Assembly: GCA_951813535.1 (NCBI GenBank)
Contig: OX638345.1
Location: 1,377,029 to 1,441,028 of the forward strand
Direction of reading: 5' to 3'
From: an uncultured Dehalococcoidia bacterium
GTDB lineage: Bacteria; Chloroflexota; Dehalococcoidia; Lucifugimonadales; UBA3495
Length of the DNA: 64,000 bases
The notes beneath the pieces are model-generated. The model was not told where the DNA came from. It ran no database searches and worked only from the letters and a program-made list of their open reading frames with translations. The first letter of the stretch is position 1. Each line of letters starts with the position of its first letter. The position numbers and the translations under genes were made by a program. Shown here in pieces: positions 31,236 through 35,054 of this stretch.

Positions 31236-31653
31236 AACTGTTCCTCCTTGCGGTGTTTCGTGAAGTGGGCCGACTGTTTCTGTTGCCTCCGGATTGGTTC
31301 AGGCGGGCATCCCGTCTCGCTCGGTCGGACACGCGCTACTCCCAGCGCGTGGCCCATCTGCCCATACATCGATCACCTGAACCTGTCTCTGCTTGTTTCG
31401 GACCGTTCCCGCTTCCCTTCTGAGTAGCGAGATGGTGCACATCTTACATCGATTTGAACGGGAACCGACCCCATGCCTCGCAATTGCCGCAGGTTGCGCT
31501 GGTTGGGCCTACCAGGCATTCATGCCTGTACCGGATGCGATTGGCTGTTGGGTTAGCCTCGCCATTCGAACCCCTCGAACGGCCCGGGGATGTTCTTTGT
31601 GCCGCGGGACGCTGCGTGATAGTGTTGCGCCATTCTCGAGATCTGGAGGAGTC
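31236..31653. other. 418-bp divergent intergenic region before the OsmC gene
   Basis: Separates the PEP-mutase-family gene (minus) from the OsmC gene (plus). No protein-like frame with a ribosome site; no clear -35/-10 pair. The last 12 bases hold CTGGAGGAGTC, the OsmC ribosome site. Confidence 0.4.
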
Positions 31654-32181
31654 ATGGCAGCACATAACGAAAGACCCGAGCCCAACTACGACCCGTTTCC
31701 GCCCGGTCAGGACCGTCGCGCCACCGTCACGGAAGTGGACGTGGAGGACATGGGTGACATGCTGCGGCGGGCCTTCGTGGGACGGGACGTGAAGTTCACC
31801 ATCTATTGCGATGAGGGACCCAATGCCGGCGGCAATCACACCGCCCCCGCGCCGCTGCACTATTTCGCCTCTTCCATCGCGTTTTGAGAGATGACGCAGA
31901 TCGAGAGGTACTCTCGAATGATGAACGTGGAGATCACCGGCGTCAGGGCCCACATCGCGGTGCACTTCGGGCTTGAGGGATCGGTGCTGGCGGGCACGAT
32001 CCAGGCCAGCGCTCCGAAGGTGGAAACCAGCTACGAGATCGAGTCACCGGATGATCCGGAACGGGTGGCAGCGGTGCTGCGCAATGCTCGCAACGGGTGC
32101 TGGGTGCGGGCCGCGGTTGCCAATCCCACCCCGTTCGAGGACCGGTCGACGCTGAACGGGGAGCCGATCTTCTTCGACTGA
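31654..32181 (+). CDS. OsmC-family peroxiredoxin-like selenoprotein (in-frame TGA = Sec78)
   Basis: 175 residues if TGA at 31885-31887 is read as selenocysteine. GGAGG lies just before ATG 31654. The codons after the TGA stay in the same frame (31891 is exactly 79 codons from the start), so this is a single in-frame stop, not a frameshift. OsmC/Ohr proteins have a reactive Cys at the start of a long helix after a P-x-P-L-x-Y segment. Here that region reads APAPLHYFASSIAF-TGA-EMTQIERYSRM, placing the TGA on the reactive Cys. The second conserved Cys is present as Cys149 in LRNARNGCWVRAAVANPTPF. A hairpin 13 bases past the TGA has SECIS geometry. Expected role: thiol/selenol reduction of organic hydroperoxides in the cytosol. 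Alternative: a nonsense-mutated pseudogene, made unlikely by the site and the hairpin. Confidence 0.82.
31888..31917 (+). promoter_or_regulatory. putative bacterial SECIS element
   Basis: Directly after the TGA: a 13-nt linker, then TCGAGAG (31901-31907), loop GTA, CTCTCGA (31911-31917), a perfect 7-bp stem. The loop starts with G and lies 20 nt after the TGA. Bacterial SECIS elements are known to be short stems inside the coding region with a small apical loop, a G at its first or second place, and roughly 16-37 nt from UGA to loop. All of this would be read by SelB. Confidence 0.75.
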
Positions 32182-32269: not shown

Positions 32270-32887
32270 CTACCAGCCCAGGCTTTCCGGAATGAGGATC
32301 ATGAAGATGCGGCCGACCATGGGCTCGTGCTCCATCACCAGGTATTTCCCGATGGGAGTCGGTCTCGCGCCCCGGCCTTCCAGCCAGCGGTCGTGCCGCT
32401 CCAGGGTGAAGCCGCGGGTGCGGGCCTCGGCTTCGGCGAGGGTCGGGCAGATTTTCTGCGTGCCGGCCACAAGGATGAGGCGTCGCGCGCCGTAGGAATA
32501 GGCGCCGATCTGGCTGCCAGATCCGCTGGCGACGACGATCTCGCCGGTTTCGGCGATGGCCTGGACGCTGCCCACGAAATAGTCGGCGATGGTGGTCTTG
32601 CGGCGGAACTCGCGCTGGGCTGCCGGATCGGTATGGGCCAGCATCTGGTCATGCAGGTTGACGTAACGATCGTTGCCGTGCATGTGCTCGGTGTAGCCGA
32701 CGGTGTCCAGCGTCTCGGAGGTGTTGACGTAGACCTCGGAGCCCTCCGGAACCAGTTCGAGGAGTTTAGCCAGGGCGGCCTCGCCGCTTTCCACCAGGAC
32801 GGCTTCGACGTTGCGGGCCGCCAGGGCCTCTATGGTCCTGCTGATGGATTCGGCGGTTGCGGGAGCATAGGGCGTTGCCGAGGACAT
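32270..32887 (-). CDS. LUD-domain protein (LutC/YkgG-like lactate-utilisation family)
   Basis: 205 residues. LUD-domain pattern: ALAKLLELVPEGSEVYVNTS, TLDTVGYTEHMHGND, a central FRRKTTIADYFVGSVQAIAETGEIVVASGSGSQIGAYSYGA (residues about 94-134), then RLILVAGTQKICPTLAEAEAR. LutC proteins belong to an iron-sulfur lactate oxidation complex, but lutA and lutB are not nearby; stand-alone LUD proteins of unknown role are common. CAGGAG precedes the ATG. It follows the LLM gene by 39 bp on the same strand. Confidence 0.88.
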   Translation of the reverse strand: MSSATPYAPATAESISRTIEALAARNVEAVLVESGEAALAKLLELVPEGSEVYVNTSETLDTVGYTEHMHGNDRYVNLHDQMLAHTDPAAQREFRRKTTIADYFVGSVQAIAETGEIVVASGSGSQIGAYSYGARRLILVAGTQKICPTLAEAEARTRGFTLERHDRWLEGRGARPTPIGKYLVMEHEPMVGRIFMILIPESLGW

Positions 32888-34016: not shown

Positions 34017-34898
34017 TCAGTCGGCCACCAGCGGCAGAGACGGATCGGCGGCGTACTCCGACATGGAGGCGTCGTATACGGCAACGTTCGCGTAGCCCAG
34101 CATGGCCAGTATGAAAGCGTCGTTGGACGCGGCGATACCGCCGCCGCAATAGGTGACCACGCGCTGCGCGCGGTCTGCGCCGGCCCCTTCGAACAGGGCC
34201 GCCAGTTCATCGGCCGGCCGGAACAGGCCGGTTTCGGGGTCGGTCAACTCGCCCGACGGGACGTTGGTCGCGCCGGGGATGTGCCCGGCCCGGCCGTAGC
34301 CGCTGCCGCCGTCCGCGCCGGAATGCTGATCCCGTCCCAGGGCGTTGATCAGGCAGCTCCCGCCGCCTGTCCCCGACTCGATGAACGCCCTGACCTCGGC
34401 CAGGTCTGCGAATCGCGCCGGGTCTGACGTGGGGTTGAAGGACGCGGGCGCGTAGGTCGCGGGATCGGTTGAGATCGCACGACCCTCGGCGGTCCACCGG
34501 CGCAGGCCGCCGTCCAGCACCACCGCGTCGTGGCAACCCATAGAGCGGAACATCCACCAGAACCGGGCCGCCCACTGCGAACCCAGGCGGTCGTACAGGA
34601 CCAGTTTCGAGGTGTCCGATACACCGTGGCGACCGGCGGCCTCCGCAAAGGCCGCGGCCGAGGGCATCATGAAGCGGTAGGCTTGGTCGTTGTCGGAGAA
34701 GTCGGCCTGGAGGTCGAGAAAGCCGGCCCCGGGGATGTGCCCGGTTTCGTACGCGCTCCGGCCTGACTCGGCTCGCCGGCCGCCGCCTTCGACGTTATGC
34801 AGGAACACGGTGGTCTCGAAGACGCGGACATCGTCGTCGGCCAGATGCTCGGCCAGCCAATCGGTGGATACGAGGAACTCGGGATGCGCAAATGCCAT
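34017..34898 (-). CDS. thiosulfate / 3-mercaptopyruvate sulfurtransferase (tandem rhodanese)
   Basis: 293 residues with two rhodanese domains. N-terminal inactive domain with YETGHIPGAGFLDLQADFSD and LVLYDRLGSQWAARFWWMF; C-terminal domain with GHIPGATNVPSGELTDPETG and the active-site loop VVTYCGGGIAAS (Cys251). The loop starting C-G-G-G is closer to the mercaptopyruvate type than to C-R-K-G thiosulfate enzymes. Start at 34898 for GGGAGCCG upstream. It transfers sulfane sulfur to cyanide or thiols; cytosolic. It shares the strand and short spacing with the LLM gene. Confidence 0.92.
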   Translation of the reverse strand: MAFAHPEFLVSTDWLAEHLADDDVRVFETTVFLHNVEGGGRRAESGRSAYETGHIPGAGFLDLQADFSDNDQAYRFMMPSAAAFAEAAGRHGVSDTSKLVLYDRLGSQWAARFWWMFRSMGCHDAVVLDGGLRRWTAEGRAISTDPATYAPASFNPTSDPARFADLAEVRAFIESGTGGGSCLINALGRDQHSGADGGSGYGRAGHIPGATNVPSGELTDPETGLFRPADELAALFEGAGADRAQRVVTYCGGGIAASNDAFILAMLGYANVAVYDASMSEYAADPSLPLVAD

Positions 34899-35054
34899 GA
34901 TCGGCTCCCAGCCGTTGCCGGCGTATGGTGAAGTCTTGCTTTCCGGCCCCAGTATCCCCGTATCACGATTCGTTCGCAACTGGTCCGAGGAGGCTGGGCG
35001 ATACATCTGTGCTATAGTTTTTGCGCTCCATACTTTGGTCGAGAGAATGCATTA

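Follow-up and report, generated by a model that had tools for sequence, protein, structure and literature searches.

A probable OsmC-like selenoprotein gene in a complete SAR202-type Chloroflexota genome

A 2005 survey of the Sargasso Sea described an OsmC-like selenoprotein with selenocysteine (Sec) in a UxxT motif (PMC1088965), which was found again in GOS (PMC2398784), and OsmC-like selenoproteins are included in a 2026 review (PMC13188914). In Xylella Ohr, a peroxidase of the same fold, the catalytic residues are Glu51 and Cys61 (PMC5962072). In one study of sponge symbionts, whose bins include SAR202 bin87 from the sponge Aplysina aerophoba, SelA and SelB are reported to occur together in most of the bins (PMC5649159). 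Here we analyse an OsmC-like gene interrupted by one in-frame TGA in a 64,000-nucleotide stretch of DNA (hereafter the window). The host belongs to SAR202/Dehalococcoidia (Chloroflexota). Among named relatives, the nearest are genome bins of Chloroflexota, led by SAR202 bin87 with 96% identity.

The read-through frame and the Sec machinery of the host

The OsmC-like frame comprises 175 codons (31654–32178, forward strand) with a single internal TGA, and stays open from there to its terminator. Reading the TGA as one residue gives a 175-residue product that starts with ATG behind a GGAGG sequence (Table 1). This product matches the NCBIfam model NF041052 from residue 26 to 169 (159.5 bits; cut-off, 95), covering profile positions 2–144 of 144 and spanning the TGA. 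Pfam OsmC (PF02566) also matches at residues 60–162 (45.2 bits; gathering score, 27.5). Since one family is matched by the whole read-through product, neither an indel nor a pair of unrelated ORFs is involved.

Table 1. Coordinates of the OsmC-like gene, its elements, and two neighbouring genes in the window
Feature	Position	Strand	Remark
Shine-Dalgarno-like GGAGG	31645..31649	+	4 nt 5' of ATG; read in the sequence
OsmC-like gene (probable selenoprotein), 175 residues and stop	31654..32181	+	Terminator TGA 32179–32181; same end residue in nearest homologues
UGA read as Sec78 (probable), motif U-E-M-T (UxxT)	31885..31887	+	TGA in homologues; Cys in 3cje and L071
SECIS-like hairpin with a GUA loop on a 7 bp stem, UCGAGAG/CUCUCGA	31901..31917	+	Invariant G 31908; folding, synonymous-codon null, covariation
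Cys149 codon TGC, likely resolving cysteine	32098..32100	+	Invariant in 37 rows
Putative LUD-domain protein, named by sequence	32270..32887	−	Convergent
Rhodanese-type (sulfurtransferase-like) protein, by sequence only	34017..35006	−	About 2 kb downstream

The window comes from a genome assembled as one contig of 4.38 Mb, with an estimated completeness of 99.8%. This genome encodes a tRNA-Sec with the anticodon TCA (66.4 bits; Rfam gathering score, 47), SelA (542 bits), SelB (354.8 bits), and SelD (370 bits), each of the three proteins scoring above its curated cut-off. The SelD gene (L021, G000:C1:1105770-1106690), which lies outside the window, has an in-frame TGA of its own (SHCAG-U-AAKLSLEDL), so that the genome has at least one more selenoprotein gene. 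A second OsmC-like paralogue (G000:C1:4171763-4172149) scores 49 bits against NF041052 and contains no internal stop.

The neighbouring genes should also be mentioned. The putative LUD-domain gene lies directly 3' of the OsmC-like gene in most loci of the same genus; this synteny is local, and we claim no functional link. The rhodanese-type gene is kept in the closest relative (L055).

Conservation of the UGA codon and the hairpin behind it

Homologues were counted as genes above the NF041052 cut-off in 60 close genomes and in a spread of 400 Chloroflexota genomes. All 22 matches in the close set, from 20 of the 60 genomes, carry one TGA, as do 26 of the 27 in the spread, the remaining one (L071) having TGC. 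Two matches occur in both sets, which leaves 47 distinct Chloroflexota genes, 46 of them with one in-frame TGA. The TGA stands in the same column in all loci examined, even in independent relatives with as little as about 25% identity. That column, 78, is occupied by Cys in 3cje, the nearest solved structure by sequence, and in the homologues L071, L093, L094, and L095. Weaker, more distant homologues mostly lack the stop, and the three that were aligned all have Cys there. One row, L091, appeared to have TCC instead of TGA, which we take for an alignment shift, as one in-frame TGA is counted in that gene. The only invariant positions in the alignment of 37 proteins are E54, P67, residue 78, S131, A145, and C149. 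The dN/dS values are 0.05–0.32 before the TGA and 0.02–0.14 after it (where dS is measurable). Judging from these ratios, both halves of the gene are under strong purifying selection.

SelA is found in 20/20 of the TGA-bearing close genomes and in 25/26 phylum-wide, against backgrounds of 55/60 and 322/400 genomes; this co-occurrence is weak evidence because most genomes have SelA anyway. In the TGA-bearing genome G399 (85% complete), SelA is not among the families listed. Conversely, the single-contig genomes G003 and G007 of the same genus have SelA but not the OsmC-like gene, which is therefore dispensable and patchy even among close relatives. The Cys-bearing row L071 joins the tree at a fork without a resolved order, and either Sec or Cys may be the ancestral state of the clade.

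Counted from the first base of the UGA, the 5' strand of the hairpin begins 16 nt downstream, and all aligned rows share the G of the apical loop. Over 33 distinct Sec sequences, pairing is realised in 200 of the 231 cells, whereas synonymous recoding leaves 130.7 ± 5.5 (maximum 147 in 500). The mean hairpin energy is −8.9 kcal/mol in the real sequences and −3.7 ± 0.4 kcal/mol in the recoded ones. Across 38 distinct aligned rows, 90.6% of the cells pair, falling to 34–53% when the partner strand is slid. Six of the seven pairs have changed on both sides, with 61 double-change cells against 20.4 in shuffles. The sequences are related and the shuffle counts thus overstate significance, so that the argument rests chiefly on the codon-level null and on the stems being distinct from lineage to lineage. 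The hairpin occurs in a shifted register in L069 and L028, and L081, which was excluded from the alignment, pairs differently. Four Cys homologues have no comparable hairpin, folding at −0.6 to −3.0. Taken by itself, the 54-nt stretch is no more stable than its dinucleotide-shuffled copies (z 0.36); as such shuffling is uninformative here, the codon-constrained and comparative tests were used. These comparisons show that the hairpin is kept by compensatory changes beyond synonymous codon choice and that the putative SECIS is under selection.

An Rfam scan of the gene detects no known RNA family; to our knowledge, there is no general Rfam model for bacterial SECIS elements. A covariance model of the hairpin run against the genome scores 63.7 bits at its own site and 18.1 at the next, giving no second believable SECIS, and the next four sites have no convincing UGA-interrupted frame. 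A search of the window for further frames with a single TGA yields nothing recognised as a selenoprotein, though it was crude and its filters missed the OsmC-like gene as well.

A sequence-only reading of this locus had proposed a probable selenoprotein, pointing to one in-frame TGA with the same frame on both sides, its position at the family's Cys, and an intact resolving Cys149. The coordinates and all three observations hold, and the proposal gains from the hairpin covariation and the dN/dS values, tests that it had not named. The sel genes that it suggested looking for are all in the complete genome, and its statement that OsmC-like proteins are among the reported selenoproteins is correct (PMC1088965). 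Its expectation that automatic annotation would split the gene need not apply, since the NCBI model already covers the family.

It is highly probable that this is a gene for a bacterial selenoprotein, a member of the OsmC-like Sec family NF041052, with SelB- and hairpin-dependent Sec insertion at residue 78 and a redox activity that would involve Cys149 and a peroxide-like substrate. The UGA in a Cys column, the Sec machinery, the hairpin, the selection on both halves, and the OsmC fold, all seen here, are the basis of this reading. Other accounts of the TGA fit these observations poorly. Were the TGA an ordinary nonsense mutation, the OsmC-like product would end at residue 77 under the standard code. 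Homologues across the phylum, however, have a TGA at this same site, the downstream dN/dS is low, the frame has no other stop or frameshift, and Cys149 beyond the TGA is invariant; a pseudogene is extremely improbable. A sequencing or assembly error that turned TGT or TGC into TGA would suit the column, where Cys is expected, and has nothing else in its favour. The TGA also appears in separately assembled metagenomic bins from several projects, making an error vanishingly improbable; its recurrence in the same column of independent relatives excludes chance and sequencing error alike.

The frame would be equally open if UGA were suppressed or reassigned to another amino acid such as Trp. Against this, the gene itself terminates with TGA at a C-terminus common to its nearest homologues, the organism has the whole Sec apparatus, the aligned non-TGA homologues have Cys and never Trp in the column, and the SECIS-like hairpin is at the right place. 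Suppression or reassignment is accordingly very improbable. With Sec as the preferred reading, SelB carrying Sec-tRNA(Sec) would bind the hairpin just 3' of the UGA, and Sec would be inserted at residue 78 to give an OsmC-fold protein of 175 residues.

Predicted active site and substrate

Among solved structures, the AlphaFold model (pLDDT 91.1) is most similar to the OsmC-like proteins 1lql (Z 15.6) and 2onf (Z 15.4). Next come further OsmC and Ohr structures, most of them with Z 12–14; 1n2f, 1nye, and 4xx2 are among the matches. In this model, residue 78 is located inside a helix predicted at 67–89, and Cys149 at the break between helices 135–148 and 150–155. Sec78 would thus lie in the long helix that bears the reactive Cys in OsmC/Ohr proteins and would probably be the attacking selenolate, while Cys149 would probably resolve the selenium, once oxidised, by forming a selenenylsulfide. 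The two-Cys layout speaks for redox catalysis, Cys149 being the likely partner.

The residue ten positions before the reactive one should be noted. OsmC-type proteins of the same order (L101–L104, SPEEL) have Glu at −10 of the catalytic Cys, as does Ohr (Glu51 and Cys61 in Xylella; PMC5962072). Here the residue is Leu68, and Leu, Met, or Val occupies the position in 37/37 rows, while a different Glu, E54, is invariant. The protein matches neither the Ohr nor the OsmC equivalog model among families listed at E up to 1. The term hydroperoxide reductase, used in the sequence-only reading, therefore goes beyond the evidence. These features favour a Sec enzyme that reduces or transfers some other substrate, such as a disulfide, a persulfide, or an organic electrophile. 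On the other side, the OsmC fold and the two-Cys arrangement are retained, the characterised enzymes of this fold are peroxidases, and Ohr (TIGR03561) has no match at E ≤ 0.001 in the whole genome or in 23 relatives of the genus and family, so that a peroxide-handling role is possible. We regard a non-hydroperoxide substrate as a serious possibility, if the less favoured one; it is compatible with the Sec reading in everything except the peroxide-like substrate. A broader proposal, which we hold to be rather unlikely, sees in the Sec-OsmC clade an enzyme of distinct function and not a Sec version of Ohr. Such an enzyme would do without the catalytic Glu, have the invariant Glu54 of a DE motif in its stead, and direct its selenolate to a substrate other than simple hydroperoxides in Ohr-less lineages.

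Comparison with known systems

No paper mentioning both SAR202 and selenoprotein was found in our literature search. The assignment to a SAR202 host may be undescribed, and the biology is of a known kind; knowledge of selenocysteine itself is unchanged. We found no difference from the family defined as NF041052 (OsmC_like_Se, 'OsmC-related (seleno)protein'). The OsmC-like protein 3cje from Jannaschia sp. CCS1 keeps the partner Cys (GC) and has Cys (CVMTQI) at the Sec position, with 23% identity across 92 structure-aligned residues. Ohr and the E. coli-type OsmC peroxidases share the fold and the two-Cys layout, but have, one residue after the conserved Pro, a catalytic Glu that is absent here. 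The substrate is worth testing because the characterised OsmC-fold peroxidases have this Glu in their active site and the present proteins lack it. SECIS selection is evidenced by the phylum-wide covariation together with the four hairpin-less Cys homologues. As in the Sargasso Sea and GOS family (PMC1088965, PMC2398784), Sec would stand in a UxxT motif, here UEMT at residues 78–81, with a bacterial SECIS-like element just after the UGA. Whereas that family was first seen as marine metagenomic fragments, it is now placed in a complete SAR202-type genome together with the Sec machinery.
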